64,000 nucleotides of DNA from assembly GCF_019059575.1 (NCBI RefSeq), contig NW_024881567.1, forward strand, positions 343,001-407,000, in the 5' to 3' direction. Positions 648-61,638 of the stretch are shown here, in pieces. The position numbers and the translations under genes were made by a program. Origin of the DNA: Amphibalanus amphitrite (Eukaryota; Arthropoda; Thecostraca; Balanomorpha; Balanidae). Each line of letters begins with the position of its first letter. The first letter of the stretch is position 1. The notes beneath the pieces are model-generated. The model was not told the DNA's origin. It saw nothing but the letters and a program-made list of their open reading frames with translations, and ran no database searches.

Positions 648-2103
648 AGGGTCACCTCGCAAGAAAGTTGCGCAACAGTTGCGAGGTCACGACAAGATCT
701 CGCAACTGTTAGAGAAGATTTTAAGCCAGCTTCTCCAGTTCGTCCCGGCCCACCTCCGAAGCACTGACGAGTACCTACAACGCCTCTCCGATGCCTACCC
801 CGGGTATAAGCTACCTGCGGGGAGTATTGCCTTCAGCATGGACGTCACCAATCTCTATGGAAACATCCCTTATCAGGAAGCCATCGAGAGCGCCAAGAAA
901 CTGCTGGACTTGCATCATACAAGAATCAACATGTTTGGTCTCAACACATCCGACGTCACCCATCTCCTACGCCACTGCCTGTCCAACAACTATTTAAGAT
1001 TTGGTGACAAATACTTCCGCCAGACGACTGGCATCGCCATGGGAAGCCACGTAGCCCCACCACTAGCCATCATCTTCATGGGACACCTTGAGGACACCTT
1101 CAACGATAGCGCACTTCTCAAACCGGACATCTACATGAGATACATCGATGACATTTTTGGAGTGTGGACTCACGGACCAACTAGTCTCAAAGAATACTTA
1201 TCCCACATCAACGAAGCACATCCTTCAATGAAATTTACCATCGAGTCGACGGAAGACAATACACCAATCCCCTTTCTAGATACCAAGATCACAGTTTACC
1301 CTTCGGGAAAGTATACAACGGAACTTTACATCAAACCAACATCAGCCGGGATTATACTTCACGCAGAGTCGGCTCAACCATGGAAGACTAAAAGGGCTGT
1401 GCTTCACTCACAAATACGACGAGCCATCAAGCTATCAAGTGACGATAACGCCCGACACCGAAGCATCAACAAAACAAGAGAGCTCTTCGCCAACAACGGG
1501 TACAACGTGAAGACCATCAACAAGACGGTGGACCAGTGCATGAACACTACCAGAGCAAGAAGAAGAAGACCGAATGCTTCCGCAGTCAGAATGGTGCTAC
1601 CATTTGTCGACGACGAGCTCGCCAACGCGGTCCAGTCAGTCGTCCGGAGGAGTAGCCAACCTGACCTGGGGTTGGCCTGGACTAATAAGAACACCATCAG
1701 GCACCAACTGGTCCGGTCAGCCCTACAGCCTCCACCCTGTCCCGGTGGCTCTCGATGCCACTCGTGCGCCGCCGGACTGAAAGGAAGATGCCACAGCTCA
1801 GGTGTGGTGTACCAGCTCACGTGTGAACTGTGTAACCAGTGTTATGTTGGTGAGACGGGACGTTCGGTGCGCCTCCGCTACAACGAACATTTGCGAGATG
1901 CTAAAAACAAGCGGAATGACTCCCCGTGGGGCGAGCATTTCCGTACACAGCATCCCCAGTGTCGGCCGGGACCCCATAATGTAAGGGCAAAGATTCTGCA
2001 GGCATGCGATGACAGTAGAGGCAGGAAAATAGCGGAGTCTCTTTGGATCAAACAGATTCGCCCAGCTCTAAACAGCAACATAGCGGCCTGGGCCATCATT
2101 TAA
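571..2103 (+). CDS. Penelope-like element 1: reverse transcriptase with C-terminal GIY-YIG endonuclease (5'-truncated)
   Basis: The uninterrupted frame encodes the C-terminal two thirds of a Penelope-like polyprotein. RT motif A is seen as FSMDVTNLYGNIP, motif B as GIAMGSHVAPPLA and the catalytic motif C as YIDD. A cysteine cluster (CPGGSRCHSC) comes next, then the GIY-YIG nuclease: VVYQLTC, then CYVGETGRSVRLRYNEH. The linker cysteines and long spacing resemble the Neptune-type branch, a family inference. The annotated ATG lies in the inverted head, so the first 40 or so residues are not native and the finger domain is missing. Real coding starts near 691. The protein would make cDNA from element RNA primed at a nick. 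Having no internal stop suggests a fairly young copy, but the 5' loss makes it inactive. Confidence 0.85.
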   Translation: MLRRWAGTNWRSWLKIFSNSCEILSRGSPRKKVAQQLRGHDKISQLLEKILSQLLQFVPAHLRSTDEYLQRLSDAYPGYKLPAGSIAFSMDVTNLYGNIPYQEAIESAKKLLDLHHTRINMFGLNTSDVTHLLRHCLSNNYLRFGDKYFRQTTGIAMGSHVAPPLAIIFMGHLEDTFNDSALLKPDIYMRYIDDIFGVWTHGPTSLKEYLSHINEAHPSMKFTIESTEDNTPIPFLDTKITVYPSGKYTTELYIKPTSAGIILHAESAQPWKTKRAVLHSQIRRAIKLSSDDNARHRSINKTRELFANNGYNVKTINKTVDQCMNTTRARRRRPNASAVRMVLPFVDDELANAVQSVVRRSSQPDLGLAWTNKNTIRHQLVRSALQPPPCPGGSRCHSCAAGLKGRCHSSGVVYQLTCELCNQCYVGETGRSVRLRYNEHLRDAKNKRNDSPWGEHFRTQHPQCRPGPHNVRAKILQACDDSRGRKIAESLWIKQIRPALNSNIAAWAII

Positions 2104-2411
2104 AGGGTAACGCCCAAGGGAAAGAAATGAGGAACTGATCCTGTCCTGTAGTACTCTAGCATTTACAACTTCGCTATTGTAATTGTTAGGTGTTGATTTT
2201 TATCCGCTGGGACTGAGAGCGTGAGATGATGTTTTTTCGTACTCCAGCGTAGATGGGTAGCCATTCGGCTTCCACGGTTGACAGTGATGACAACCGTGGA
2301 AGCTATTGTAACGTCTTCTGTTCTGATGCCTTTGCCACTGATTCACTGACCATGTGTGTATTGATGACAAGTGGCTTTTATATTCAACCATATTGATGAA
2401 TGGTGTGTGAG

Positions 2412-2526
2412 AAAATGAATGAATGAATGAAGGACTGAATAATTGGATGATTGTATGAATGAATGAATGATTGAATGAGTGAATGAATGAATGAATGAAT
2501 GAATGTATGAATGTATGGATGAACAT
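2412..2526. repeat. (TGAA)n-type simple repeat
   Basis: Imperfect tandem GAAT/TGAA tetranucleotides, with interruptions such as GATT and GTAT. A minus-strand frame through it reads as repeated FIHS, which is not a gene. Confidence 0.85.
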
Positions 2527-2942
2527 GAATGATTGAACGATTGAGTATTGTTTCGAGGTTTGAATGAATGGTTTAATGGTACAGTATTTATGCTCTTTGA
2601 TGTAAGATGGTGGCCTTTGATGACTTGATTGTCTAATTATCTATAGCTGAGTGATGTGTGAGTACATGGATGGTTGGATGTTTGACGGATTGCATGGCTC
2701 GATGGTTGAATAGACGACTAGATGCTTGTGGTCTAGTGATTGATAGATGATAGGGATGAATTAATGTGTAAATTGTGGACACACATGTATTATATTTATA
2801 TGAAAGGGTACCTTGTGAACATTTCAACTGTAAGATGGTTGTCTATTTTGCGCGGCGAGAATTTACCAATGTGAGACTTCCTAACTTAGCTGTTATCGAC
2901 ATATTCTGGCGCTGTTGTGACAAAATGATTTAATTTGCAATT

Positions 2943-2975
2943 CTGAACTGAAGAAGGACAGTGTCCGAAATATAT
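2943..2975 (+). ncRNA. Hammerhead ribozyme-like core in Penelope-like element tail
   Basis: CTGAAGA at 2948-2954 is followed by a short hairpin (AGGAC, loop, GTCC) and GAAA at 2967-2970. This matches the hammerhead consensus CUGANGA, stem II, GAAA. Penelope-like elements are known to carry hammerhead motifs in their terminal repeats. Stem I and stem III partners around the core are weak by eye, so self-cleavage may need a dimeric arrangement or may be lost. Confidence 0.55.
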
Positions 2976-3554
2976 TCATTTTGTAATTAATTTTGGAACC
3001 TTTTGCATTTCGCAATCATTGAACATAAGGTTATATTTGAAAACATATATATGTCATAATGCTGTTCATACAAGTACTTCGCCATTTACTTGAATTTTGT
3101 TAACTTTAATTTGGTGTTCTTTGGTTTTAATTTGCTGTTCGGTTAATTTAATTTGAAGTAGAAAAGGTGTAGATCCATAGGTCATGACCTAAGAAAGCAT
3201 ATGAAAACACATCTGATGTGCTCATATCAACATTACAGATCAGTTGATGAGCAGCATGGCTCTTCCCGAAAAAAGTGTTTGGGATGCAAAAAAAAAACAA
3301 GATGATAAATTGTCATGACACATCTTACCAAAATGTATTCAAGGAATCAATTTGAGATTGGAGCAAAATGATCTGACATAGATCTAACCTAAAAACGACC
3401 AAAAGCCTTGTCCGAAAACCGCTGACGGTTGAAAGCTCAATGACACTAGAGCCGTGCATAAGGAGGTGTGAAAACACTTTCCTTTCCTCATCTCGATCTA
3501 TTACGAGAAGACCATGTTATAACGTGAGAAAGGTGTTCTCAAAATAAAATACAT

Positions 3555-9158: not shown

Positions 9159-11535
9159 TCACGAGCCGACGCCACTGGCAGGCAGCTGCCGTTGTAGCAG
9201 GTAACTCCGCAGCTCTCTTTTGAATAACTGCGTGTTCGTGTCACGAATAATTTGTGGCAGACCATTAAAAGCTGTCACAGCGGAATATAAAAAGCGCCTC
9301 CTGCCTGATTCCGTTCTAATGGTGGGAACATTCAGCATATCGTCCTGTCGTGTGGTACGCTGACGGACGTGGCGCCTCTGCATGAGGCTGGCGGAGAGCG
9401 TCTCAGGCTGAGCAGTGGATAGCATGCGCTTTAACAATGTCAGAGCGTGAAAGACATGCAAGTTGTGGGCTGAAAGCCACTCAAGTTCACGAAGGACCTC
9501 GCTCACGCGATCAAATTTGCGACGCCCCGAGATGACGCGTGCGGCAAAATTTAACACTTTTTGGAGTCGTCCAGTCTGTGTAGCATTGCAAGTTCCGTAA
9601 ATGCTTATGCAGTAACGGATGAGTGATATGACTAGAGCTTGGACTAGTGTTGTGAGTGTCGCACGAGGTAAACTATGACGGCAGTGACTCAAACCAATTA
9701 AAATTCCAGTGCAGCGCCGTACTACATCATCTGTGTGGGCGGCGAAAGTCATACACTGGTCAAATACGACACCCAGGTTTCGCACCGTGAGAGAACCGGA
9801 GACAGTCGCGCCCATGAATTTGATGGAAATGGTTGGTAGCTGTCGAAGATTTTGGCGGGTACCGAGAGCTATGAGTTGTGTTTTTTGAGCGTTGATTTTC
9901 ATGCCATTTTTGCCGAACCAGTGAGAAAGCTGCGTTAAATTTCGTTCCATGGAACCAATCAGTGCGCCAATGTCTCCGGGCCTCCCACTCACGAGAACCT
10001 GAGTGTCGTCAGCATACTGACCGATACACGCGTCATCAGCATATAGCGGAAGGTCATTCGCATAAATGCTGTACAACAGCGGTCCGAGCGCTGACCCCTG
10101 GTAAGTACCGATAGGGTTTGGAAGCGGCGCAGAAAGGGCTCGCGAGCCACTCTGGCCCTGAATGACGACCTGCTGATAGTGATCAGCAAGGTAGCTGGCA
10201 AACCACCGAGTGTCCACGTTATACATCTCGAGCTTTCTCAACAGGCCATCGTGCGGAACAACGTCGAAACATTTGGACAGGTCTAACAGGCATAAAAGGC
10301 TGATCTCTCTGTTGTCCATGGCCTCAAACACTCTATCTGTTACAGTAAGAAGAGCGGTGTCAGTAGAGTGATTAGACCTAAAACCATGCTGACTAGATGA
10401 AAATAAATGATGTGTGGTGAAGTAGCTAAAAAGCTGTTCATACACGACCCGTTCAGTGATTTTGGCGATGGTTGGCAGAATAGAGATTGGTCTAAAATTG
10501 GACACATCGGTAGACTTTGGCGTTTTCTGAATAGGATGGACTAAGGCCAGCTTCCACGAGGTCGGCACAGAGTGACCAGCGAGACTAGAGTTGACAATGT
10601 GGGTGATAACTGGACAGATGGGGTCAATGCACTGCTTAATAAAACGCACGCACAGTCCGTCAGCGCCGCACGACACGCCGCCGCCCATCCGACCAATGAC
10701 ACGCCGCAGCTGCCCCTGAGTGACCGGTGTCACCTGAAACCGGCCGGTGGCCACGCGCGGGAGTCGTACCGCCAGCTCCGGGCCCGCAGAGTTCACCTGC
10801 CGGGCCGTGGTCGTGCCAATACTCGCAAAGTATCGGTTGACATCGTCCATGTCCGCGTCTGGCGACTGTCTAGCCGGCCGCTTCCCCGATATAATGGGCC
10901 GCACACTACGCCACAGAGAGCTCGGCCCACCCTCGCGCAGGCGCCGGCCGATCTCCTCCCGCGTGTCACGGCGGACAGCTGACCTGACCTGCCGGTTCAG
11001 CTCCCTATACCGGTCACGGTCAGAGGCACGGAGAGCCGCACGCCGCTGAGCCATCAGGTCCTTGGTGGCTTCTGTCACAGGGGGCGCTGTCGGATTACGC
11101 GCCTGGATGCGTTTGACAGGAGCCAGCTCGTCGACAATGGGAAGTGTCATTGACAAAAAATAGTTCCACTGTTCACTCGGGTCAGCACTGTTAAAAACCG
11201 GGCTCCAGTCCACGCTATATAGGCGCCGGTTCGCCTCCGCCGCATCCAGTTTGCGCCAGCACCTGCCCGTCACCGTACACGGTTCAGGGCGACAGTCGGG
11301 GAGCGACATCAGCACACGCGACCAGTTATGAGGGCTGTAGTCACAGTGCAGCGTACCGGCTCGCTCAACACCGCGATTCGTGGAAATAACATCTATGGTG
11401 GAGCCTGATTTCCGGTAAGTAGGTTCGGTAATGTGCTGCAGCATGGAGTAAGCCCCCAGAAGCTCGCCGAGTCTGATAGCCGCGGTGCTCCTGTCGTCCC
11501 CGGTGTTGATGTTGATATCACCGGCTATGATGATG
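9159..11535 (-). CDS. LINE A: endonuclease tail and reverse transcriptase (CR1/Jockey-type, 5'-truncated)
   Basis: An open frame runs from about 11535 to the stop at 9159. It enters inside the apurinic-like endonuclease (IIIAGDININ, the GDxN-type motif, about 80 bases before the first ATG at 11444), so that ATG is unlikely to be a true start. Next come the linker, RT block FRPISILP, the HGFRSNHSTDTAL block, motif A LLDLSKCFDVVPHD, GSALGPLLYSIYANDL and the catalytic QYADDTQ. The C-terminal region typical of CR1/Jockey/L2 elements ends in ...LPQIIRD. The element copies its RNA at a nicked target. No internal stops, so it is young, but it is truncated. It lies inside the MITE 8177-11661. Confidence 0.85.
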
Positions 11536-11664
11536 GGTCCGCTTTTTGGTCATTACCGCGAAGCTCTATCTCCAACAGGAACGAAATGGCGCGGGGGGTT
11601 GCACCCCCCCCCCCCATGTGCGTTCTAGGATGGGAAAATGGCATGTGCGGGCGAGGGTTAAGCA

Positions 11665-20404: not shown

Positions 20405-20654
20405 ATAGCCGTCTTCACGACGGCCATCTGATACACATTTGGTGCACATCTGGGGCAGATTAGGTGCAGATTGGGTCAAATTAGGTTCAGTGTGTCTCTT
20501 AGTAGCTATCAGCTAGGGTTGCACTAATTGCTTATATGCGTGCTTTGTCATATTATCAGAGAGCATCATCGATTAAAACACTGAAATAAATTCATAAAAT
20601 AAAGATAATTGCTGTAAAAGAGATTACGCGCAGATTTTGTCAAATTAGGTGCAC

Positions 20655-20686
<32 letters not shown>

Positions 20687-20687
20687 G

Positions 20688-22174
20688 CTCCCTCTGCTCC
20701 TCATGGGGGCATTGCCAGACGGCTCTGGAAGCGTCTGGCGGCGGCCGCCAGCGCCGCCACCACTCAGGTCTCCCGGACCTCCTCCAGCCTGGGATGGATG
20801 TGACCCAGGGTTGTATGTCTCAGTCGCATCAGCGCCGGACATCTCAGCAGCACGTGTGCCGGCGTGTCAGGCTCCTCATTACACAGGGGGCAGCGGGCCG
20901 CCACACAGCCCTCGTCGCGGCAGGCCTCACATCCTACAGAGGGAACGGTACCGATCCTTTGCAGATAGGCCCTAGAGCCCGACCAGTGCCCGGCACGCAG
21001 CTGGTGGACATCCACCGCTCTCTCCCGGTCCAGCCCCGCCACCGGTCGCGGTGGGGGGAATCGCCCCCCCCCCCATCAGCGACCGGAACCAGCCGGGGGG
21101 CCAGGCCCGGACCGTGTCGTCGCGGGCGGCCCTAGCCACCGCTCGGGTGATTGTCCTGATGTCTACAGGCACGCTGTCCTGTGGTAGATCGGCGGCCTCT
21201 CGGGCCACCCTGTCGGCTCGCTCATTACCCTCCACACCACAGTGCGAGGGGACCCACTGGACGTGGATAGTCCGGCCATCATCCGAGAGGGCGGACATGG
21301 CTCTCCAAGCCACTACTCCCAGCGGGGAGGTCTGGGCGGCCGGGCCGTTGCGCAGGGTCGCCACTGCTGAGAGGCTATCCGTGCAGACCACGATGGGCAG
21401 GTCCTGGTCTCTGTCTTTTTGGGTTAGGGTCTCCAGGCCGGTCACCAGCGCTACCATCTCTGCGCGGTAACTGGAGCATAGCTGTCCGGCCGGGGTCCTC
21501 GGCCTCTTCATCCGGCCAGACCAGCACGGCCCCAGCTCCGCCCCTCGAGACTCCGCCCACCGCGGACCCGTCCGTCCACATCCAGACGGCACACTGCGAC
21601 AGGGACGCGAGGTGCAGGGCGGCCGCGCGCTCCTTTTCCGCCGCCGCGGCGCCGGCCCGGAGGGGGCCCACGTCCATCCGGAAGGTGACGCCTGATGTCT
21701 GCCGCCACGGCGGTATCATCAGGAAGCACCGGCGGCTCCACCGGTAGCGCGACTCCGGCCTTCTCCCAGGCCCGGCGGCCCCGCTCTCTCCACCCCCGGA
21801 CTGAGGCCAGGCGCGCCGGCGCCGAGGCCTCGGCGGTCGCGCGCAGGGGGTCTCCCCCGGTGGCAGGGCCAACGCTCTTCCCAGCAGCCTGGCGGCCAGC
21901 GTCCATCCCCTCTCCTCCATCGGGGCTAGTCGAGCTTCCGCCATCAGCGCGTGGGACGGTGTAGATCGCGGGCACCCGGTGATGATACGGACCGCCCCCG
22001 CAGTTCCCGCTCCAGGAGCTCCACGTGCGAGGGGGCGGCCGCCGGCAGCCACGCGGCGGCGGCGTGCTCTAGCGCCCCGCGGACGTAGCCGTTGGCTACC
22101 GTCCTCAGGGCATCCTCGTCCAAGCCCCAGCTGCGCCCGCCGAGGCGGCGCAGGTGAGCCAGCCGGGGACGTAC
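20688..22174 (-). pseudogene. LINE 1 C-terminal half: RNase H and CCHC zinc finger
   Basis: Minus strand. It starts in the post-RT region (RPRLAHLRRL, VANGYVRGALEHAAAAWLP), then shows RNase H: WTDGSAVGG, SSYRAEMVAL, VVCTDSLSAV and QWVPSHCGVEGNERADRVA, containing the D-E-D-D/H residues. A zinc-finger segment follows: CEACRDEGC, RCPLCNEEPDTPAHVLLRC. At least two frameshifts (near 21060 in a C-run and near 21500-21990) break it. RNase H removes element RNA during cDNA synthesis. Very high GC compared with flanks. Confidence 0.8.
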
Positions 22175-22520
22175 AGTCGTGTACAGGTTGATGGTCCCCT
22201 ACTCTTTATCCATCGGGTTCCTATGGCTCAGCATTGGCAGCAGCCGCCTGGTACCGGTAGGCTGTGCCGCATGACCCGAGAGTGAAGCGGCACAGCCTAC
22301 CCACACTGTATGACACCGGCTCGGGTCGCCTGGTAGAGCGATTTGACCGGACGCTGCGTTACACCGGCTGGGGGGAGGGGGGGGGGTAAAGGTCAGGCTT
22401 GTCTATTTAGCTCGGCTCGGTGGATGAGGCGGGCTGGAGTGTGGTGTGGGGCGGGGGTGATGTGGGGAGGGAGTGAGCGGATCTGGGGCTGGGTGTGTGT
22501 GGTCACTTGTCGCATAGAAC

Positions 22521-23335
22521 CGATCGTAATCCACCCTCCAAAAATTCGCTTTAGAGATATTCACAAAACCCAGGGGGGTTCAAACACCCATCTCCCAAGT
22601 GGGGTGCGGAAGGACAGGTAAGGGTCCATACGGTCTCCTCATGAATTGCAGCAAAGAAAGAAAACAGACCTGTCACCAAATAATCTTTCTGAAAGGTGGA
22701 CTAATCGCATAGCCTCGGACACAGAAATAAACATCCAGCACGCGAAGCGTCTCGAACCGGGCCTCTCACTACCGGTCAGTTTGACAGTCTAGCACTCCTA
22801 CGCCGAGCTACACCGGATGGTGGCCACGGCCGGGGCAAAGTCTGGCCGGGCGGGCGGCGGGGGGAGGTCGGCAGCAAAGTCAATGAATGTTTTTGTGGTT
22901 TCGGGTGCCGGTCGCTCTAGCTTGGTGGAATGATGATGGATCATTGGCAAAACTTTCTACGTGGAGTCCCGGTTCGAGCCTCATCGGGGCTCCGGCTACT
23001 TTTCCGAGTTAGGATCTGGTTTGATTTTAGTGGTTGCGAGCCATTTATACGGTTTTATATCTACATGTCGATTGTCGATTGATTGATTGATTGATTCATC
23101 CGTTCATTTATTACATGTCGACATTTAGCATACGAATTTACATCCAGGATCAATCCGATCAATCTACCATTTTCATAAGCGTATTGCCTAAATATCATGC
23201 ATATATGTGGCACAAGACCTATGGTTGCCTCGATACCGTGCCAAATCACGTTTTGCACAATGCACAAGTAAATTATATTCGCTAGGTCTTCCGTGCATTG
23301 TGCTTAGCAAAAACAGGAATGCAATTGTTAAGCGA
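22521..23335. other. Core of the long-TIR element with tRNA-like motif
   Basis: No protein frame. At 22540-22620 there is a TTAA-MITE terminus-like piece (GGGGGGTTCAAACACCC). At 22965-22985 GGTTCGAGCC matches a Pol III B box, and TAGCTTGGTGG about 50 bp upstream resembles an A box, so a degenerate tRNA-derived SINE is possible. A (TTGA)n run lies at 23074-23095. Confidence 0.35.
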
Positions 23336-23513
23336 CGCAAAATGTGCAATGCAGCAAGTGACCACACAACCCGCCCAGCCCCCATGGTCCACCAACACGC
23401 CCCACACCACTCCCCAGCCCACGCCAACCACCGAGACGAGCCCCTCCCCCGCGCTGGTCTGACGTGACAGCTGGTCTACAAAGCGCTCCACCCGGCGACC
23501 CGAGCCGATGACA

Positions 23514-24745
23514 GCGCAAGCGTGTCAGCGGCTTGCTGGGCACGGTGTCTGGCCGTCTCGATACTCGCACCCGCGCACAGGGTTGCAGTGTCGTCGGCGT
23601 ACATATAGGGTGTGCATCCTTGGATCGCCTTGAGGGAGTGTGCGAGGGGTGCCGCCCACAACAAAAACAAGAGCGGGGACAGGACGCTACCTTGCGGTAG
23701 GCCCGCCCGAAACACCCGTTCGCCACTCTTCACTCCGTTCACCTCGACGGCGACTTGTCGGTCTCGGAGCCACTGCCACGTCCACTGCACCATGCAGCGC
23801 GGGAGTCCCAGCTCTAGCAGTCTCAGACGTAAGAGGCGATGGTCCACCACGTCATAGGCGCGCGCGAAGTCATACGCGACCATTACGTACTTCTGGGCGG
23901 TGGTGCCTTCTGGTGGGTCTGCACGTCTGGACTTGGGCCGATTCCATCCGTCTTGCACCTGCTGGACGAGTCTGCCGATGCTGTCCTCGACCGATCGGCC
24001 AGCCCTGAAGCCGACCTGCTCCGGTGGGACCAGTCCGCGGGACTCGGCCAGGAAGGTGAGACGTCGCTTGATGAGTCGCTCAGCCAACTTGCCGACGTGC
24101 GAGGTCAGAGCGATGGGGCGGTAGCTCGCGGTGAGTCGCTTGTCCTTCCCCGCCTTGGGGATGGGGACCACCGTCGCTTGTCGCCACTGCCTCGGGACCT
24201 CTGCGGTCCGCCACGACATGTCGATGATGGTCAGCAGGACCTTGCGAGCCACCGGTCCTAGATGTCGGAGCATCTCGTTCGAGATGCCGTCTGGTCCGGG
24301 GGCCTTCTTGAGCTGGAGTCCGCTGAGCTCTCTGACCAGGTCCTGCACGCTGAAGGGACCGCATGCTCCTTCTCGTCGATCGCCGCACCCGCGGCAGGAG
24401 CGGTGCTCTTCCCGTAGCTGCCTCTTGGTATCGCGGTCCAGCTTCGGTATGCGCACCTGCTTCGAGACTCTCGCATACTCTTGGACGAAGGCCTCTGCCT
24501 TATCGCGGTCGGTTACGATGAGGCGGTCTCCCTTCAGCATCGCTTGGCCGTCCCTGGGCTCATCGTCACAACATCGCTCCCACTTCTTCAGCGTCTTGTG
24601 GACCCTGCCGACGTTGGCTGGCCTGTTCAAGGTGGTGGAGACGAAGTCCTTGAAGTGTGCGATGATGGCCTTCTTCTCCAGTTCGGCCGCGCGCCGCTTG
24701 ACCGCGATCCAGCGCTCCCGGGACGGTGTGTCACCATCGCGCAGG
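23514..24745 (-). CDS. LINE 2 inverted 5' segment: reverse transcriptase
   Basis: Minus strand, open. It begins in the pre-RT linker (RWIAVKRRAAELEKKAII) and has RT blocks KKAPGPDGISNEMLRHLGP, YRPIALTSHVGKLAERL, PEQVGFRAGRSVEDSI, motif A VAYDFARAYDVVDH, motif B AGLPQGSVLSPLLFLLW and the catalytic MYADDTATLCAG. It stops at AADTLA, the inversion break; after that the frame reads into TIR sequence. The apparent ATG at 25065 is in the antisense of the plus half and is not a real start. The endonuclease is missing through 5' truncation. Confidence 0.85.
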
Positions 24746-24775
24746 GATGGTGACACACCGTCCCGGGAGCGCTGG
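24709..24775. repeat. 29-bp perfect palindrome at the LINE 2 inversion junction
   Basis: Arms 24709-24737 and 24747-24775 (starting CCAGCGCTCCCGGGACGG) are exact complements around a 9-base loop. The left arm belongs to the RT segment; the right arm duplicates it in the other direction before the RNase H segment begins. Confidence 0.95.
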
Positions 24776-26462
24776 ACAAGATGGGCCAGGACATCGAAGA
24801 TGGTCGTCTCGGGAGAGAAAACCCAGGTCCTGGTGCTCTCGCAGTGGCCGAAGGACGCAGTGGACCTGTCCATCAGGGTGGCTGGAGCGAGAGTTGAGGC
24901 CCGCGAGACTCTCAACCTGCTCGGAGTAACGCTGGATCGCCTCCTCCACTTCGGCCCGCACTGCAAGAGGATGCGACAGAGAACCCGACCGAGACTGCAA
25001 CACCTCAGGAGACTGACGGGCAGGGACTGGGGGCTGGAAGAGCGGCAACTCCGCATCGTGGCCAACGGCTACGTCAGAGGCGCGCTGGAGCACGCCGCCG
25101 CAGCGTGGCTACCGGCCGCGTCCCCCTCCCACGTGGAAGTACTGGAGAGGGAGATGAGGGAGGCCGCCCGCGTCATAACGGGCTGCACGCGCTCAACCCC
25201 CACCGAAGCCCTGATGGCGGAGGCAGGACTGGCTCCGGTGACGGCCCGGAAAACCACCCTGGCGGCGCGATTCCTCGCGAAGGCAAGAGCCCTCCCAGAA
25301 GAGGACCCACTACGCCGAGTAGCGGACGCGACCGTCAACCCACGGTTGAAGGCGGTGACGGGCTGGCGCACGGTGGGTCTGGAGGCCTGGCACATGGCAG
25401 GTGTCGTGGCCCCGATCGAGCCGGTGCTGCCGCCCAGCGTCGCCCCGTGGGAGGAGGCCCCCCCGGTGGTCTTTGACCTGGGGATAGGAGCCACACCCCC
25501 CTCCGGAGCGTCCGCGGAGACCCGCCGACAGGCGGCCGCCCTGCACCTGGCGTCCCTCCCCCAGTGCGCGACCTGGGCCTGGACGGACGGATCCGCCGCG
25601 GGAGGAGTGCTGGACGGTGGAGCGGGCGGCTATATCGAGTGGCCCGACGGGGAGAGCCACGAGCTCCGCGCACCAGCGGGCAAGCTCTGCTCGAGTTACC
25701 GAGCGGAGATGGTGGCACTCCGCGAGACACTAAACTACATCGGCAACCACACTGATCATGAGGAGGACCCCATCATACTGTGTACCGACTCGCAAGCAGC
25801 TCTATCTGCCCTACGGAGTGGCCCGGCCGAGCAAAGGACGCAGCTGAACCGAGCTGTCTGGGACGCTCTGGCCCTGGTGTCCGACAATGGAGAGCGGCAG
25901 GTGCGCCTTCAATGGGTCCCGTCCCACTGCGGGCTGCCTGGAAATGAGATGGCCGACAGCCTAGCCAAGGAGGCGGCATCTCTCCCCCAAGAGCAGGTAC
26001 CGGTGGACACGCGCACAGTGCATAGAGCAGCGGCGCGAGCGGCGGACGCTCGCACACGAGAGCAGCGACCCCCAGGCTGGTTCCGAACCCTGATGGGGAC
26101 AACGTGCCCACCCACAGTGTCTGGCCTGGACCGTCTGACGGCTATCGACGTCCACCAGCTGAGAGCCGGACACTGGTCAGGGTCGCAACAGTACCTGCAT
26201 CGCATCGGCAAGAGCCCCACACGGCAGTGCGACGCCTGCAATGAACGAGCATGCGGCGGAGCCCTCTGCCCACTCTGTAAGGAGGAAGCCGACACCCCAG
26301 ATCACATTCTGTTGCGGTGCCCAGCGCAGATGGGGCTTCGGTTCCGCCTGACGGGAAGCATACACGCCCCAACCAGAGAGACTGCAAGGAGCACAAGTTA
26401 CATCGCGGCCATGGCGGCCGCGCGCAGAGGGATGCTAAGCCGCGAGGCTTCGCGTCGCTAGA
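24776..26462 (+). CDS. LINE 2 3' segment: RNase H and CCHC zinc finger
   Basis: Plus-strand frame continuing from the RT at WARTSKMVVSGEKTQVLVLS. Post-RT region: LLGVTLDRLLHFG and VANGYVRGALEHAAAAWLP. RNase H follows with WTDGSAAGG, SSYRAEMVAL, ILCTDSQAALSAL and QWVPSHCGLPGNEMADSLAKE, all catalytic acidic residues present. The end has a zinc-finger segment, CDACNERACGGALC, CPLCKEEADTPDHILLRC. Stop TAG at 26460-26462, then a short AACAACAA tail. The frame upstream to 24131 is antisense of the inverted half and is not coding. Confidence 0.85.
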
Positions 26463-26633
26463 CGCCGAGAGGACGAACAACAAGCCGATGTCAAACGGCG
26501 CGGGAAGACCGTGCCGCATAACTCTCCGGTCATGCGGCACAGCCTACCGGTACCAGGCGGCTGCTGCCAATGCTGAGCCATAGGAACCCGGCGGATAAAG
26601 AGTAGGGGACCATCAACCTGTACACGACTGTAC

Positions 26634-26739
26634 TCGTTTCCGGAGTCGACGACAGTAGGCACCGAATTGGAGGCGGCGGTCGAGCTCCATGCCGAGGAGG
26701 ACTAGGGTGTCTTTCGCCTGCACCGTCTTTCCTGCCACC
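26634..26739 (-). pseudogene. LINE 1 middle linker between two insertions
   Basis: Minus strand reads KVAGKTVQAKDTLVLLGMEL, then DRRLQFGAYCRRLRKRV, homologous to the LINE 2 stretch following the catalytic RT domain. The left border is the GTAC next to the long-TIR element, the right border the TTAA of the MITE. Confidence 0.85.
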
Positions 26740-27637
26740 TTAACCCTCGCCGGCACAGGGGAGGGGGGGTTGATGCAACCCCCCTAAGGTTTTTCGCAAA
26801 TAACTCGCGTATAAAGCGAGCGATCGCGACGAAACTTTCAGTACCCTCGCAGTGATCAATTTTACACTTACCCTGAAAATTTCATGACCCTGACCCAAAT
26901 GACCTTTGACCTGTGACCTCTTTTCTGAGACCATGTTTGGCCGGAATCGCGATTCGGCGTATGTCGGCTCGCATTAGCCGCGCGTTTGCAAGCTTTTCGT
27001 GGTTTCAAACGTTCAAACATGTGATTTGATGTTGCTCCCATACATTACGGTGGGTGTCAATGTCACCTGAAGGTCAGGTCAGGTCATTGACCTTTGGTGA
27101 CCTCGGGTGACCTCGGCTCACTTTTTCGAGTTTTATATGTTTCTAGGCTAGTTTTTGGAGCTAAATTCGAATTTAGCAGCCATTTGAACATTTACGAAGT
27201 AGTTTTGGTGCCTTCGTAACATGTTACGAAGTTGGCAGAGGCGGTTGGCACGTATTACGAATACCCGTCACAACCCCTACCGGTTGACCTGACCTGACCT
27301 GACCGGAACTGGTCTAAATGCTTAAAGACATCATCTCTGATCAAAACTAACACGATATTCGTGATCAGCACCCCGAAAAACCACATAGCAGCCACACTTT
27401 ACGACTTTCTAACAGGTCCCGATTTTTCCGGTTTTCGGGTCATTGACCTGACCTGGAAGGTCACCCGATGACCTAGGACTTAAAATTGGGTATCATCGGC
27501 TTCCTCCCGTGACGGGCAACACGCTCGCTTTTTCCGCGAAGCTCTAGCTCGATCAGGGGCCAAACACAAAGGGGGTCGTACCCCCCCCCCCTTGTGCCGT
27601 CGAAGGACGCAAAATGGCCTGTGCCGGCGAGGGTTAA
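26740..27637. mobile_element. Complete TTAA MITE (CCCTCGCCGGCACAGG) inside LINE 1
   Basis: TTAA at 26740-26743 and 27634-27637 with inverted termini CCCTCGCCGGCACAGG. Removing it rejoins the LINE 1 frame. A perfect DR1 (TGACCT, T, TGACCT) at 26900-26912 is followed two bases later by another TGACCT. GACCTGACCTGACC runs occur near 27285-27300. Length 898 bp, non-coding. Confidence 0.9.
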
Positions 27638-29055
27638 TGGTGCCTCGGACGGGGTCTCGGGCGTTCTGGGAGAGCACCAGTAGTTGGGTTTTCTCCCCGG
27701 CGACCAGCATCTTGTTGTGGTGAGCCCACGCGACGAGGGCATCTGCCGCTGTCTGCGCTCGACCTCTCGCCACCTCAATGGTGTTGCCCGAGCATAGGAC
27801 TGCCGTGTCGTCGGCGTAGATGTAAAGAGAGGTGCCCGGCGCTCGGAGGGCCTCAGCCAGGTCTGCCGCCCACAACAGGAACAAGTAGGGCGACAGAACA
27901 CTGCCAATGGGGCAGCCCGGCGCGGAACATCCTCGTCTTGGAGAGAGCTCCCTGAACTTCGACCCTCGCTCTTCTGTCGCGTAACCATCCCCATACCCAC
28001 CGGACAGGGCAGAGGGGGAGGCCGCTCTCGAGGAGTTTCAGACGCAGTAACTTGTGGTCCACGACGTCATACGCTCTACTGAAGTTGAAGGCTGTCAGGA
28101 GGAACTTCTGTGCTGACTCTTCGTCCTGGCGTTTTGACCGTTTGTCTCTCTTTGGCTTCTGCCATCCGTCTTCCACGTCTTGCACAAGTCGCCCGATACT
28201 GTCTTCCGCCGATCTTTCTGCTCTGAACCCCACTTGTTCGGGGGGGGATGAGTCGGCGCTTTTCGGCCAGGAACTCCAGCCGGGGTAACAGCGTCCGCTC
28301 GGCTAGTTTCCCTACACAGCTGGTGAGGGCAATTGGCCGGTAACTTGACAGGAGCCTCTTATCCTTCGCTGCTTTCGGTATCGGTACCACGGTCGCCGAG
28401 CGCCACTCTTGGGGGACCACTCCTGTCTTCCATGACTGGTTGATGAGGTGGAGCAGTGCGCTCCGGGCCACCGGACCAAGGTGCCTAAGCAGTTCAGGTG
28501 TGATGCCATCGGGCCCGGGGGACTTGCGCAGCTGCGTCCTCTGGATGGCTTGAGCGAGTTCCTCTTCAGTGAAGGCCGAGCAGCACCCGGTGCGGTCGTT
28601 CTGACACACGGTGCATGCGTGTCGGTCTATCCGGTTCAGCCGCTCCCGCGCCGCTCGGTCTATCTTGGGACTCCTCACTTGCCTCGAGACAGTGGCATAT
28701 TGATGTGCAAAGGCGTTCGCCTTTGCCTCGGCGTTCGCCTTTGCCTCGGTGGAGACGAGAAGTCGGTCGCCAATCTTCATCGCTTCGCCGTCCCGGTGTT
28801 CGTCATCTCCTCCTCCCTCCCACTTCTTGAGCATTCGGGAGACTCGACCGACGCTGGACGGGCGATTCAGCTCAGTGGTGACGAATTATCGAAAGGACTC
28901 TCGAGAAACTCGTGCCTCCACCTCTGCTGCAAGCTTCTTGGCGTTGATCCAGCGCGTCTTGGCTGTAGGATCTTCGGCTGTCACGGCCCGCCTCGCCTCT
29001 TGTCGCTCTTCTGCCGCTCTCAACACATCCGGGTGCAGAGCCCATGGCTTTGCCC
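27638..29055 (-). pseudogene. LINE 1 N-terminal half: reverse transcriptase with frameshifts
   Basis: Minus strand. It begins in the linker (RWINAKKLAAEVEARV), then RT blocks RKSPGPDGITPELLRHLGP and YRPIALTSCVGKLAERTL, a frameshift near 28245 (G-run), GFRAERSAEDSIGRLV, motif A TAFNFSRAYDVVDHK, a second frameshift near 27910, and IYADDTAVLCSG. An in-frame 18-base duplication gives AEAKANAEAKANA (28710-28750). It cannot make an intact protein. The 5' part with the endonuclease is absent, as expected of target-primed truncation. Confidence 0.85.
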
Positions 29056-29159
29056 ATTAGATGCACTCGTCGGATAGCCCGTCCTGAAAACGGCTAATAT
29101 TGTCTCTTAACAAAATATCAAAATTTAGGGCACTTGTCATAGGCCCGTAATGCTAATTA

Positions 29160-35046: not shown

Positions 35047-35320
35047 TGCTTTTGCTGGTCGGCCCTGCGCCCGACCGCTATGGGCTCGCTGATAACCTGG
35101 CCGCCGGTCCGGCCGAGATGGCTGCACTCAAGAAGAAAGAACCCTTCCCAGCTGCGTGTCGGAGTGCCCCGGCTCTGAGAAGACCCAGACCGGATCACGG
35201 CGAGGACGTTTGCACCGTGAGTGATTCGCTGGTCAGTGATGCGCTGGTTCAGTGCGGTGCCGCAGCAGTGCGGTGGAGTGCGCGATTAGTGATGCGCTAT
35301 ATCAGTGATGCTCTGGATCA

Positions 35321-36422
35321 GTGAGGTGGTGGACGGCTGCGGAGGGTGTGCGGTCGCAGTGAGGTGGTGGACGGCTGCGGAGGGTGTGCGGTCGCAGTGA
35401 GGTGGTGGACGGCTGCGGAGGGTGTGCGGTCGCAGTGAGGTGGTGGACGGCTGCGGAGGGTGTGCGGTCGCAGTGAGGTGGTGGACGGCTGCGGAGGGTG
35501 TGCGGTCGCAGTGAGGTGGTGGACGGCTGCGGAGGGTGTGCGGTCGCAGTGAGGTGGTGGACGGCTGCGGAGGGTGTGCGGTCGCAGTGAGGTGGTGGAC
35601 GGCTGCGGAGGGTGTGCGGTCGCAGTGAGGTGGTGGACGGCTGCGGAGGGTGTGCGGTCGCAGTGAGGTGGTGGACGGCTGCGGAGGGTGTGCGGTCGCA
35701 GTGAGGTGGTGGACGGCTGCGGAGGGTGTGCGGTCGCAGTGAGGTGGTGGACGGCTGCGGAGGGTGTGCGGTCGCAGTGAGGTGGTGGACGGCTGCGGAG
35801 GGTGTGCGGTCGCAGTGAGGTGGTGGACGGCTGCGGAGGGTGTGCGGTCGCAGTGAGGTGGTGGACGGCTGCGGAGGGTGTGCGGTCGCAGTGAGGTGGT
35901 GGACGGCTGCGGAGGGTGTGCGGTCGCAGTGAGGTGGTGGACGGCTGCGGAGGGTGTGCGGTCGCAGTGAGGTGGTGGACGGCTGCGGAGGGTGTGCGGT
36001 CGCAGTGAGGTGGTGGACGGCTGCGGAGGGTGTGCGGTCGCAGTGAGGTGGTGGACGGCTGCGGAGGGTGTGCGGTCGCAGTGAGGTGGTGGACGGCTGC
36101 GGAGGGTGTGCGGTCGCAGTGAGGTGGTGGACGGCTGCGGAGGGTGTGCGGTCGCAGTGAGGTGGTGGACGGCTGCGGAGGGTGTGCGGTCGCAGTGAGG
36201 TGGTGGACGGCTGCGGAGGGTGTGCGGTCGCAGTGAGGTGGTGGACGGCTGCGGAGGGTGTGCGGTCGCAGTGAGGTGGTGGACGGCTGCGGAGGGTGTG
36301 CGGTCGCAGTGAGGTGGTGGACGGCTGCGGAGGGTGTGCGGTCGCAGTGAGGTGGTGGACGGCTGCGGAGGGTGTGCGGTCGCAGTGAGGTGGTGGACGG
36401 CTGCGGAGGGTGTGCGGTCGCG
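35321..36422. repeat. Perfect 38-bp tandem array, 29 copies
   Basis: Unit GTGAGGTGGTGGACGGCTGC plus 18 more bases, repeated with no visible variation from 35321 to 36422 (1,102 bp = 29 x 38). It lies in the untranslated leader between the presumed LTR and gag. A long minus-strand frame across it is a repeat artefact (38 codons per three units). Confidence 0.95.
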
Positions 36423-55328: not shown

Positions 55329-55707
55329 TCTTGTTCCGATCGCTTTGTTGTTCTGCCTGGTTTGGTAGTCGGCTGGTTGGTCGATTTGTTGTGTGTTTGA
55401 TCAGTTGGCCGCTGTTTTTTTTTTCCGTCGGGCAGTTAGTCATTGGTGGTCAATCCGCTTACTTTGGACCAGTGAGTCTGTGTGTTCTATGTCGCCGGAT
55501 TTAATGTGTTTATGTCTGTGTTTCGTGACTCGCTGTTTTAGCTGGGCTGTCCTTTATATCCGTCTGGTCTTTTACCCTACCGCCGAATTCACGGTCGAAG
55601 CTTGTTCCTGGTCACGCTGAATACGTTTCCATACATGAATACAAAGTGTCTATAATTATCATCTTAATTTGACGAGTTCAGTTGTGACAAAGCGATGATC
55701 TGGTTTG

Positions 55708-55709
<2 letters not shown>

Positions 55710-55781
<72 letters not shown>

Positions 55782-55806
55782 AGTGACAAAGCGATGATCT
55801 GGTTTG

Positions 55807-55859
<53 letters not shown>
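55710..55859. repeat. (TA)n microsatellites, left of foldback
   Basis: Two (TA)n runs (about 55710-55779 and 55808-55859) separated by a second copy of GACAAAGCGATGATCTGGTT, also present just before the first run at 55686. Confidence 0.95.
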
Positions 55860-55862
<3 letters not shown>

Positions 55863-57946
55863 ACAGGCAAAGTGAAAACTCGGGCATTTTGCAAAATGCC
55901 TGACCGGCCAGGCATTTTGCAAAATGCCCGGGCAGTTTGCAAACTGCCTGACCCACCAGGCATTTTGCAAACTGCCTAGGCATTTTACAAAATGCCTGAC
56001 CCGCCAGGCATTTTGCAAAATGCCTGGGTTTCCATATATTCCACCCTTTTGTTGACTACAGTACAGGCGTTGATCATAAACGTTCCACTGTGACTGACCC
56101 CACAGCACATTTCACATATGTTGTGGGCACATGTGACACATTCCACGGTCACGAATACAGGGTGTCACGAAATTGTTGCGGGATGTTGTACTTGTGTCCC
56201 GAAATGTATTGCATCGTAGTTCCGTCAGTGTTCTCCAGCACCTCGCTGACAAGTAATCAGCGGCCACATGGTCTGTCCCCGCGGCACCTGGTGAAGCTCA
56301 AATAGACCTCTGTAGCCCAGCATGCCCCAAACGAGAGTCCCCAGTGCCCAGTGGGTGCTTCACCGTCTCGACAGTGCAGCGCCTCTGAGCTGCTGTTGGC
56401 CCAGAACTGCTTGTCGGGACGGTTAGTGACTAAGAAGAGCTCTAATAGCCGTTTTCACGACGGGCTATCCGGCGAGTGCACCTAATTTGACCAAATCTGC
56501 ACCTAATCTCTTTTTCAGCAAATATCTTTATTTTATGAATTTATTTCAGTGTTTTAACCGATGATGCTCTCTGATAATATGACAAAGGACTAAGGAGGCA
56601 TATAAGCAATTAGTACAACCCTAGCTGATAGCTACTAAGAGACACACTGAACCTAATTTGACCAAATCTGCGCCTAATCTGCACTAGATGTGAACCAAGT
56701 GTGTACCAGATGGCCGTCGTGAAAACAGTTAATATCGCCTCACGGCCTCATCATTGAAAAGTCTGAATCTCTAGTCCTGAATGGTCCAGATTTGGTGGGT
56801 TTTGGTGCCGGGATGTAATTTGAACGGGTCCAGCACCAGGGCATTTGGACCAGGGCACTCGGCGTCTAAATCGTCCATCCCCCGGTATCTGAAGATTTTA
56901 CCCTGAAGCTGAAGCCGCTCAACCTCAGGCTGCAACCCTGATTTACCGTCATCCATAAGTGGTGCAGCTGGATTTCGACAAAACCCACCAAATCTGGACC
57001 ATTCAGAACTGGAGATTCAGACTTTCCAATGATGAGGCCGTGAGGCGATATTAGCTGTTTTAACGACGGCCATCTGGTACACATTTGGTTCACATTTGGT
57101 GCAGATTAGGTGCATTTTGGTCAAATTAGGTTCAGTGTGTCTCTTAGTAGTATCAGCTAGGGTTGTACTAATTGCTTATATGCCTCCTTTGTCATATTAT
57201 CAGAGAGCATCATCGGTTAAAACACTGAAATAAATTCATAAAATAAAGATATTTGCTGAAAAAGAGATTAGGTGCAGATTTGGTCAAATTAGGTGCACTC
57301 ACCGGATAGCCCGTCGTGAAAACAGCTATTAGAGCTATTCTTAGTCACTAACCGTCCCGACAAGCAGTTCTGGGCCAACAGCAGCTCAGAGGCGCTGCAC
57401 CGTCGAGACGGTGAAGCACCCACTGGGCACTGGGGATTCTCGTTTGGGGCATGATGGGCTAGGTGAAGCTCAAATAGGTCTCTAGACCTATTTGAGCTTC
57501 ACCAGGTGCCGCCGGGACAGACCATGTGGCCGCTGATAACTTGTCAGCGAGGTGCTTGAGAACACTGACGCAACTACGATGCAATACATTTCGGGACACA
57601 AGTACAACATCCCGCAACAATTTCGTGACACCCTGTATTCGTGACCGTGGAATGTGTCACATGTGCCCACAACACATGCGAAATGTGTTGTGGGGTCAGT
57701 CACAGTGGAACGTTTATGAACAACGCCTGTAGTCAACAAAAACGGTGGAATATATGGAAACCCAGGCATTTTGCAAAATGCCTGGCGGGTCAGGCATTTT
57801 GTAAAATGCCTAGGCAGTTTGCAAAATGCCTGGTGGGTCAGGCAGTTTGCAAACTGCCTGGGCATTTTGCAAAATGCCTGGCGGGTCAGGCATTTTGCAA
57901 ATTGCCTAGGCATTTTGCAAAATGCCCGAGTTTTCACTTTGCCTGT

Positions 57947-57949
<3 letters not shown>
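55860..57949. mobile_element. Large foldback element in (TA)n
   Basis: Left arm 55860-56803 and right arm 56980-57949 are complementary with small indels, leaving a loop of about 175 bp. Termini GTTACAGGCAAAGTGAAAAC. The outer 160 bp of each arm contain repeated short palindromes (GGCATTTTGCAAAATGCC). Each arm also carries one AATAGCCG MITE (56445-56735; 57045-57335). No coding capacity. (TA)n borders both ends. Confidence 0.85.
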
Positions 57950-58026
<77 letters not shown>

Positions 58027-58034
58027 ATGATGCT

Positions 58035-58070
<36 letters not shown>
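57950..58070. repeat. (TA)n microsatellite between foldback and PLE 2
   Basis: (TA)n to about 58023, GATATGATGCTTGA, then (TA)n to 58069. Tyr/Ile repeat frames through it are not genes. Confidence 0.95.
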
Positions 58071-58071
<1 letters not shown>

Positions 58072-58075
58072 TCAT

Positions 58076-58846
58076 TAAACGTAATAGCACTTTCACATTT
58101 CGAAAGCTTTGTTTGTGTTTTTATGATCTTATTGACTATTTTCTTGCTGTTTTCGTCAATACGATGTATCAGATCGGCAAAGTTCATGTAAAAATATTCG
58201 TTAAAGTTCGACGCGTTTCGAATGTATTATACATTCATTTTCAAGTACACTGTGAGACACTCGTTCAAATAATGCGTACATGGACACGATTGAACAACAA
58301 TATACAGGTCACGAGTAAAATCATAAATAACACTTTCAGTTTCAGTGCGCTACTACAACAGTAACTATGATCACGTCACACATAGCGCTAGTCGGGTTGG
58401 GTTGCTTGTGTTGGTGTTGTTCTGCGTGTTTGTGGGTGTGATGTGTGCTGCATTGTACCCCAGAGAGCCAGTTTTTCTAGGCGTGCGTTTTTCTGTTCAT
58501 TGATGCTTGGTGTGTGGTCTCTGATGTGTATGGCCTCTGTGATCTCTACGCGTCTGGGGTCACGGTTGGAGTGGATGATCGACGTGTTTTCTACCAGGTG
58601 TTCTCTTGTCAGTCTAATGTTGTGTTTCTCCAGCATGTGTGTCTTGATTGCTCCCTCCTGTTTGTGCATGGTCAGACGACGAGACAAAGTGGTGCATGTG
58701 TATCCAACGTAGCTGATGTTCTGAAGCCTGCAATCTTCAGAGGGACAGTCAAATTGGTACACTACGTTGGTACGCATGAGCCGCTTAGTCTCAATCGGGT
58801 TGTTTTTCATGACCAGATGTTTCGTCTTTGTGCTCTGATAGTAAAT
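58076..58846 (-). mobile_element. Inverted partial copy of Penelope-like element 2
   Basis: Reverse complement of 59331-60101, with only a few mismatches seen over about 770 bp (for example 58292 and 58344). It includes the GIY-YIG endonuclease part and 3' tail in minus orientation, adjoining (TA)n on its left. Confidence 0.9.
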
Positions 58847-58856
58847 AGTAAATCTG

Positions 58857-59789
58857 ATAGTCACTTACGAATTAAGTCGCGACGATGTTTTGCCCTTCCT
58901 TGACGTGCTCGTAGAAAGAGGTGCAAACCAGTATCACACAAGTGTGTACCGCAAACCCACCAACACAGGCCAAACACTTAACGCTAACAGCGAATGCCCG
59001 AGTAGATACAAGACCAGTGTGATCCGAGCATTTGTCAAAAGGGCAATCCGTACTTGCTCCACCAACAAGAGCATGCACGAAGAGTTTATGCGCCTCAAAC
59101 AGCTCCTAGTTAACAATGGTTACAGCAATGGAGACATAGACTCAGAAATCCAACGACAACTTGACACAAAATATAACGACACAAACATGCAGGAGTTGCA
59201 GGGCACATCACACCACCTATATTACCGCAACTTCATGAACACAGAATATGAGAAAGACGAGCGGATACTCAAACATATCATTACGAAAAACGTAGAATGC
59301 AAGGACAAGTCTGACAAACTCATGCTTCACATTTACTATCAGAGCACAAAGACGAAACATCTGGTCATGAAAAACAACCCGATTGAGACTAAGCGGCTCA
59401 TGCGTACCAACGTAGTGTACCAATTTGACTGTCCCTCTGAAGATTGCAGGCTTCAGAACATCAGCTACGTTGGATACACATGCACCACTTTGTCTCGTCG
59501 TCTGACCATGCACAAACAGGAGGGAGCAATCAAGACACACATGCTGGAGAAACACAACATTAGACTGACAAGAGAACACCTGGTAGAAAACACGTCGATC
59601 ATCCACTCCAACCGTGACCCCAGACGCGTAGAGATCACAGAGGCCATACACATCAGAGACCACACACCAAGCATCAATGAACAGAAAAACGCACGCCTAG
59701 AAAAACTGGCTCTCTGGGGTACAATGCAGCACACATCACACCCACAAACACGCAGAACAACACCAACACAAGCAACCCAACCCGACTAG
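58857..59789 (+). CDS. Penelope-like element 2: C-terminal RT region and GIY-YIG endonuclease
   Basis: Open frame beginning just after RT motif C (PFLDVLVERG, TSVYRKPTNTGQ, LNANSECPSRYKTSVIRAF). It continues through the RT thumb ([16 protein letters not shown]) and LYYRNFMNTEYEKDERILKH to the endonuclease: VVYQFDCPSEDC, then [18 protein letters not shown], the conserved REHL block and IHSNRDPRRVEITEAIHI. RT motifs A-C are absent, so it is 5'-truncated where the inverted copy begins. The 3' tail runs to about 60110. Confidence 0.85.
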   Translation: MVTYELSRDDVLPFLDVLVERGANQYHTSVYRKPTNTGQTLNANSECPSRYKTSVIRAFVKRAIRTCSTNKSMHEEFMRLKQLLVNNGYSNGDIDSEIQRQLDTKYNDTNMQELQGTSHHLYYRNFMNTEYEKDERILKHIITKNVECKDKSDKLMLHIYYQSTKTKHLVMKNNPIETKRLMRTNVVYQFDCPSEDCRLQNISYVGYTCTTLSRRLTMHKQEGAIKTHMLEKHNIRLTREHLVENTSIIHSNRDPRRVEITEAIHIRDHTPSINEQKNARLEKLALWGTMQHTSHPQTRRTTPTQATQPD

Positions 59790-59931
59790 CGCTATGTGTG
59801 ACGTGATCATAGTTACTGTTGTAGTAGCGCGCTGAAACTGAAAGTGTTATTTATGATTTTACTCGTGACCTGTATATTGTTTTTCAATCGTGTCCATGTA
59901 CGCATTATTTGAACGAGTGTCTCACAGTGTA

Positions 59932-59968
59932 CTTGAAAATGAATGTATAATACATTCGAAACGCGTCG
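59932..59968 (+). ncRNA. Degenerate hammerhead-like hairpin, PLE 2
   Basis: CTTGAAAA, hairpin TGAATG...CATTC, then GAAACG. This has the layout of the CUGANGA, stem II, GAAAC core, but the first box deviates. The mirrored copy lies in 58076-58846. Confidence 0.35.
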
Positions 59969-61557: not shown

Positions 61558-61568
61558 ATATATATATA

Positions 61569-61628
<60 letters not shown>

Positions 61629-61638
61629 TATATAACAA

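Follow-up and report, generated by a model that had tools for sequence, protein, structure and literature searches.

Inverted 5' ends are well documented for the long interspersed nuclear element (LINE) L1, with 639 of 2068 (30.9%) human- or chimpanzee-specific insertions that carry 5-30-bp duplications being 5'-inverted (PMC2912911). Two further reports describe snap-back of the complementary DNA (cDNA) at the 5' junctions of insertions driven by the R2 protein (precise RNA-mediated insertion of transgenes, PRINT; PMC11371274) and, in zebrafish, extra nucleotides at the 5' junction in about half of ZfL2-2 copies (PMC4245944). Here, we describe a nest of mobile elements in Amphibalanus amphitrite whose innermost member, a LINE, combines a 5' inversion with a foldback at the joint between its two parts. 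The window, i.e., the whole stretch of 64,000 nucleotides that was analysed, covers C70:343001-407000 (contig NW_024881567.1) of an 807.55-Mb assembly in 2644 contigs, from which the relatives were drawn; positions are those of the window unless a contig is named.

Five mobile elements are nested between 20406 and 29096, that is, five elements in 8.7 kb. The oldest is a small miniature inverted-repeat transposable element (MITE; 20406..29096, termini TAGCCG...CGGCTA), which is split by LINE 1. LINE 1 in turn holds a second MITE flanked by TTAA (26740..27637) and an element with long terminal inverted repeats (TIRs; 22171..26633), and the latter is split by LINE 2, which sits within its right TIR. 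The LINE parts are stranded, and the DNA elements and target duplications are given without strand. The nest, its cuts and its order are read directly, all four insertions being present in the sequence and every cut being confirmed by relatives in the assembly. A model's earlier sequence-only reading of this DNA had proposed the same nesting order, which sister copies bear out independently. Its claim that the order could be read holds from the outer to the inner elements, and fails for the TTAA MITE and the long-TIR element, since neither interrupts the other. Likewise, the nest can be "dated" only in the sense of a relative order, an absolute date requiring a mutation rate.

LINE 2 lies between a left target duplication GCCGATGACA (23504..23513) and a right one GCCGATGTCA (26484..26493), both having been read back from the letters; each of the two motifs occurs once in the window. 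Its 5' segment is inverted (23519..24745, minus strand) and codes for reverse transcriptase (RT) in an open frame of 413 aa with an RVT_1 match (24744-23506), while its 3' segment is direct (24775..26483, plus strand), with RNase H, a cysteine-rich C terminus and a short (CAA)n tail, and is read in a frame of 572 aa with an RNase_H match (24743-26458). The two segments are contiguous on an uninverted sister, where they cover L003 281-1508 and then 1509-3217: the inverted segment aligns to C966 in one block at 99.1% (L003 1508 to 281) and the direct segment at 99.7% (from L003 1509 to 3217). The blastn ends of the segments overlap by 4 nt because CGCT is present on both sides of the cut, and the letters place the cut at ...GACACGCT|GACAAG... 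with zero loss. Both parts are on one strand in 15 of the 16 LINE 2-lineage places (loci read), the window alone being inverted. The tail is found on the direct part only, and a single target duplication surrounds both parts. LINE 2 therefore displays the features of a twin-primed 5' inversion, i.e., an inverted 5' segment, a direct tailed 3' segment and one duplication.

The joint itself carries a foldback. Its first arm (24708..24738, plus strand) is the end of the inverted segment and is a perfect complement, over 31 nt, of the second arm (24746..24776, plus strand), which holds the same 31 nt of the LINE in direct sense, is absent here from the sisters read, and shares the GA at 24775-24776 with the 3' segment. 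The arms are separated by a 7-nt loop, GCGCAGG (24739-24745), that extends the sister LINE sequence (CCTGCGC upstream of GATGGTGAC), and copying therefore ran 7-8 nt beyond the arm before it reversed. Inverted arms of LINE origin around a short loop, as seen at this cDNA end, are what a cDNA snap-back would leave. The sequence-only reading had treated LINE 2 as an ordinary insertion, a view that has to give way to a 5' segment inverted inside one target duplication with a foldback at its joint.

The site that LINE 2 entered can be seen empty. At L018, the TIR has no LINE 2 at this place; it aligns to the joined flanks at 342 of 356 nt and has one GCCGATGTCA, and the sister TIR elements L066, L067 and L068 read through the site, so that the proposed capture of LINE 2 by the long-TIR element stands. 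As a separate observation, L018 (G000:C626:268766-272827) holds a different LINE 2-lineage copy that lies, by eye, inside this long-TIR copy, also near AGCCGA, with its own duplication AGCCGAGCCAAAT.

LINE 1 is flanked by an 11-bp duplication, ATTAGGTGCAC on its 3' side (20644..20654) and ATTAGATGCAC on its 5' side (29056..29066), both likewise read back from the letters. Because ATTAGGTGCAC occurs four times in the window, both strands counted (19830, 20644, 56476 and 57288), the duplication alone is weak evidence and intact MITE copies weigh more. Two such copies lie in the window at about 56445-56740 and 57051-57327; the occurrences at 56476 and 57288 are inside them, one copy of the motif in each. 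The left half of the split MITE is identical to them at 229/245 and 230/248 nt and the right half at 40/44 and 38/44 nt, giving a difference of about 7% overall, and on both copies the halves have 12 nt in common at the LINE 1 target, ATTAGGTGCACT. The intact MITEs hence show an 11-12-bp target, in agreement with the claim that LINE 1 had inserted into the small MITE with an 11-bp duplication. The target of the MITE was probably TA, at 20406-20407 and 29095-29096. The region around the two intact MITEs (55700-58100) shows them in opposite orientation with mirrored flanks and resembles a larger inverted duplication holding both.

LINE 1 itself is in three minus-strand parts: a 3' part (20655..22170) with RNase H, a cysteine-rich C terminus and a (CAA)11 tail (TTG run at 20655-20687), a middle part enclosed by the two inserted DNA transposons (26634..26739), and a 5'-truncated RT part with frameshifts and stops (27638..29055). 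Among the candidates scored (40 of 529 for the 3'-part query and 40 of 160 for the 5'-part query), the 3' part has genome copies at 92-95%, plus a separate group at 78-81%, and nine copies besides the window carry both outer parts on one strand at 93-96%, a tenth, C1071, having them on opposite strands. The gap between the parts is 123 nt in eight of the nine same-strand copies (C29, C128, C32, C1293, C860, C300, C314 and C555). With both inserts and one copy per target removed, the gap predicted for the window is 121 nt, which together with 2 query bases unaligned in the relatives gives the 123 nt observed. Furthermore, short stretches of four relatives align to all three parts in order, and the middle part matches L062 at 106 of 110 aligned nt, where it is continuous with both other parts. 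The halves thus belong to one element, as had been proposed; halves from different subfamilies were tested for and not found. Once rejoined, the sequence has the LINE 1 spacing and the MITE and TIR alignments seen in the relatives. At the TTAA target, six of six relatives have TCAA, and this one-base difference fits a time lag before the TTAA insert; at the GTAC target, five of six have GTTC and C314 has GTAC, so the LINE 1 GTAC target may have been inherited. An 18-bp tandem duplication in the 5' part (28712-28749) appears as an inserted repeat in the protein.

The TTAA MITE has TIR CCCTCGCCGGCACAGG between two TTAA copies (26740-26743 and 27634-27637), and no open reading frame of at least 150 aa lies wholly within 26744-27633. 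With 40 of 7951 candidates scored, it has 39 places besides the window at 94-95%, and TTAA stands on both sides in 3/3 copies read, the window's included. Its TTAA duplication, its TIR and the lack of a long transposase frame are the sequence features expected of a TTAA-target MITE, and these flanks, with the LINE 1 spacing in relatives, uphold the view that LINE 1 took it up. The long-TIR element lies between two GTAC copies (22171-22174 and 26630-26633) and has outer arms of 151 nt that are 91% complementary, plus inner arm pieces; 40 of 496 candidates were scored, and 39 of these places, besides the window, match at 95-98%. Of its 514 exact termini, 503 have TA preceded by G, 9 by A and 2 by C. 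The target is therefore GTAC, which settles an earlier "GTAC or TA" in favour of the former. On these counts a Tc1/mariner assignment was dropped, for which a TA target with otherwise free flanks would be expected. A tRNA-like match in the interior was rejected too, as ARAGORN found no tRNA in the window.

The divergence of the copies is consistent with an outer-to-inner order. Private differences number 10 in 330 columns for LINE 1 (4 relatives), 8 in 1101 for the long-TIR element (3 relatives) and 10 in 2871 for LINE 2 (7 or 9 relatives), and the LINE 1 frames contain several stops, the two LINE 2 frames none. The low private difference of LINE 2 suggests that this insertion may be polymorphic.

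LINE 1 and LINE 2 had been assigned to the same family, and this needs to be revised to two separate lineages within one group encoding endonuclease (EN), RT and RNase H. Copies of the LINE 1 lineage are found at 92-96% and those of the LINE 2 lineage at 98-99%, with one more at 87-88%, whereas the two window LINEs share 42-81% identity by tblastn, in nine segments; LINE 1-family copies, among them C29, C128 and C860, match the LINE 2 3' protein at 60% (residues 11-568). Judged by these sequences, the two are cousins in one group. Pfam matches were obtained to RVT_1 and RNase_H for LINE 2 (E-values of 8.9e-24 and 7.2e-13) and for LINE 1 (3.5e-11 and 8.4e-10, with two of four LINE 1 pieces having no match). 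Both window LINEs are truncated before the region of the apurinic/apyrimidinic endonuclease (APE) domain, which is present in the sister copy C966 (L032; Exo_endo_phos_2, 1.2e-15; Exo_endo_phos, 6.5e-11); a comparison of the EN region with solved structures gave 0 matches. The group has (CAA)n tails and, in several sisters, target duplications of about 10-14 bp, partly read by eye, with none seen by eye in C50 and C1299. From its domain matches, we class the group as APE-type LINEs with RNase H. The reading as a whole is partly supported, with its views of LINE 2 as a plain insertion and of the LINEs as one family needing correction.

Further observations were made on copies of this group. Two LINE 1-lineage copies with differing 5' truncations, L071 (C1352) and L087 (C1293), sit at the same spot in repeated host sequence (GAACGAGCAGGTTCTGTA), which hints at a target preference. 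An internal piece of a related LINE family (query 583-1865) recurs with identical ends at 98-99% in eight places (C157, C32, C245, C697, two in C392, C328 and C430), and may be part of a LINE that travels within a different mobile element. Group copies are also interrupted in C590, C235, C20, C830 and L021, with query overlaps of 9, 8, 4, 1 and 10 nt, respectively, some of which fall in the size range of target duplications.

The 5' junctions of sister copies were compared with that of LINE 2. Inverted 5' pieces are found in three of them: C1071 (LINE 1 lineage), which lost 358 nt between its parts and has, by eye, a 13-14-nt duplication and no foldback; L056, with a 110-nt inverted piece and an overlap of about 10 nt; and L018, with a 14-nt inverted piece at its LINE copy. 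Foldbacks are found in L022 (arms of 30 nt, plus another repeat of 19 nt) and in L030 (two hairpins in an 85-nt filler, with a 20-nt arm). By eye, other junctions are clean (for example L011, L017, C110 and C314) or carry direct repeats (L026, L027 and C32). When fillers were searched for matches of at least 8 nt to the LINE or the flank, L005 and L015 gave 9 nt each and L023 none, leaving their source unexplained.

For a census of foldbacks, we used a detector requiring arms of at least 13 nt within 100 nt upstream and 60 nt downstream of the junction, which does not pick up inverted pieces lying at a distance, for instance in L018, L056 and C1071. For copies with RNase H, 32 junctions were scored and 5 were positive; in L045 and C50 both arms are in the host flank, so LINE-derived arms are present in 3/32 (the window, L022 and L030). 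Since it was the window that led to this test, with its inversion joint as the scored position, the unprompted rate is 2/31. As a control, 224 positions were taken along five LINE loci together with their flanks, and 0 had arms of at least 13 nt. The 32 junctions are not all independent, since C615 and C56 begin at the same query base and were both kept; one junction shared by C108, C533 and C1699 was represented by C108 alone. Outside the 32 are C486, C128, C555, C860 and C63, whose 5' end is beyond the fetched stretch, C1071, a set that is interrupted or of unclear 5' truncation (L057, L060, L034, L006, L040, L046 and L048), and C48, C758, C1840 and L105-L108. Among junctions of an RNase H-less LINE (query window 9162-11549, with no RNase H match), 1 of 16 was positive: L119 (G000:C128:76026-76426), with 15-nt arms and a 10-nt loop at a 5' edge placed approximately from an 80% match, is probably a similar foldback, and L123 has 11-nt arms, under the cut-off. 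The L119 foldback is flanked by a further complementary stretch. RNase H as the cause of foldbacks is not supported, there being no difference in rate (3/32, window included, versus 1/16).

We hold it very likely that the nest formed in the order given and that LINE 2 arose by twin priming with cDNA snap-back. LINE 1, a 5'-truncated EN-RT-RNase H LINE, would have entered the small MITE by target-primed reverse transcription, duplicating 11-12 bp; the TTAA MITE and the long-TIR element, with its GTAC target, would later have entered LINE 1, and LINE 2, a young copy of the related lineage, would then have entered the right TIR of the long-TIR element. A first cDNA would have run from the 3' tail up to GACAAG..., and synthesis of a second cDNA would have started from the other target end, on the neighbouring base (...ACACGCT), and proceeded toward the 5' end of the RNA. 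Either this second cDNA or a host polymerase acting at its terminus would then have snapped back, self-copying 31 nt via the 7-nt loop, and the snapped-back end would have been joined to the first cDNA over the 2-nt GA microhomology. Twin priming accounts for the order of the parts and the single duplication, and snap-back of the second cDNA for the foldback; which primer and which polymerase acted is what we infer.

The opposite strands of the two parts might suggest a pair of independent insertions of one family, side by side in opposite directions, yet both lie within a single duplication, the tail is confined to one of them, and together they cover the element with neither loss nor overlap at the cut, so that we give this account hardly any credence. 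It is very improbable, too, that the foldback or the inversion is an artefact of assembly or of chimeric reads. Foldback reads are a familiar artefact in some libraries, but the arms here are just 31 nt with a 7-nt loop, they lie within a coherent target duplication, and similar joints are found in other contigs. A simple 5'-truncated copy with a 5' snap-back, whose segment was inverted later by rearrangement, has more to commend it: turning round the stretch between the target edge and the cut in such a copy would yield exactly the present order, and L022 and L030 show the uninverted form. However, one breakpoint would have to fall at most 5 nt from the border of LINE and target, and the inverted 5' pieces on the target side of C1071, L056 and L018 make a cause coupled to insertion simpler, which leaves a later inversion unlikely. 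Template jumping is a possible, if doubtful, source of the foldback: on reaching GACAAG, the first cDNA would have jumped onto the RNA's 5' piece, copied the final 31 nt of that piece and then abutted the end of the second cDNA. The 2-nt GA microhomology at the jump site agrees with this, but the landing would be internal to the acceptor RNA, L022 and L030 have hairpins although no jump of this kind took place there, and the multiple reversals in L030 resemble self-priming. A further route, in which the LINE's own RNase H destroys the RNA template of the second cDNA during copying, so that extension of the first cDNA stops exactly where the second was primed and the end thus released snaps back, strikes us as decidedly unlikely; if true, it would explain both the loss-free inversion and the hairpin at the joint, and LINE insertion would have a separate mode of completion.

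Twin priming with snap-back in an ordered nest remains our preferred explanation, and several observations sit uneasily with it. Exact abutment is seen in only one of the four inverted cases. The left copy of the LINE 2 target, GCCGATGACA, has one mismatch and is followed by the 5-nt filler GCGCA (23514..23518, plus strand), which lies between the target and the inverted segment and is missing there in sisters; the filler and the mismatch mask any microhomology at the second priming site, which for this reason is not read directly. In C63 the two LINE 1 parts are 1153 nt apart, with the 5' match stopping 32 nt early. As for relative age, the LINE 1 count is drawn from 330 columns, the LINE 2 differences are uneven between its parts (7/1181 versus 3/1690 columns), and the window's long-TIR element is no more diverged than three sisters (8 versus 9, 8 and 6). 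The dating step from the long-TIR element to LINE 2 is weak because the elements were compared with unequal numbers of relatives, and a larger set reduces the count.

Elsewhere in the window, a 38-bp unit is repeated 29 times at 100% identity (35319-36421), which points to an array formed very recently or else stems from the assembly. A frame with RT and GIY-YIG, the latter scoring just below the Pfam cut-off, lies at 541-2103 and is presumably Penelope-like; frames beside long (AT)n runs at 58388-63019 look related to it by eye, one of them without a Pfam match.

The nest compares with known nested transposon clusters in its stratigraphy by interruption and in an outer LINE that is more diverged than the inner, with no difference in kind, and it offers a clean worked example of elements that annotation would break into fragments. 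LINE 2 shares with the twin-primed inversions of human L1 an inverted 5' segment at the target, a direct tailed 3' segment and one duplication; unlike human L1, the LINE group here encodes RNase H, the segments abut exactly and a 31-bp foldback stands at the joint. The likeness to PRINT is that the 3' end of the cDNA seems to self-prime before the 5' junction forms, although PRINT is an engineered R2 delivery in human cells and the present cases are natural APE-type LINE copies, one with a large inversion. With ZfL2-2, the group shares additional nucleotides at the 5' junction, as in the fillers described above. Among the titles and abstracts listed on twin priming outside L1 and on retrotransposon snap-back, none showed a natural occurrence in a LINE with RNase H, and inversion, foldback and exact abutment in one natural insertion were not met in these titles and abstracts either. 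The known picture is unchanged by this case alone. Together, the LINE 2 joint and the sister junctions provide a small collection of natural traces of twin priming and snap-back from a LINE group with RNase H, useful for understanding how the 5' end and the second strand of a LINE are made. Nests, twin priming and snap-back are each known, and their combination at this locus adds a modest new instance to them.

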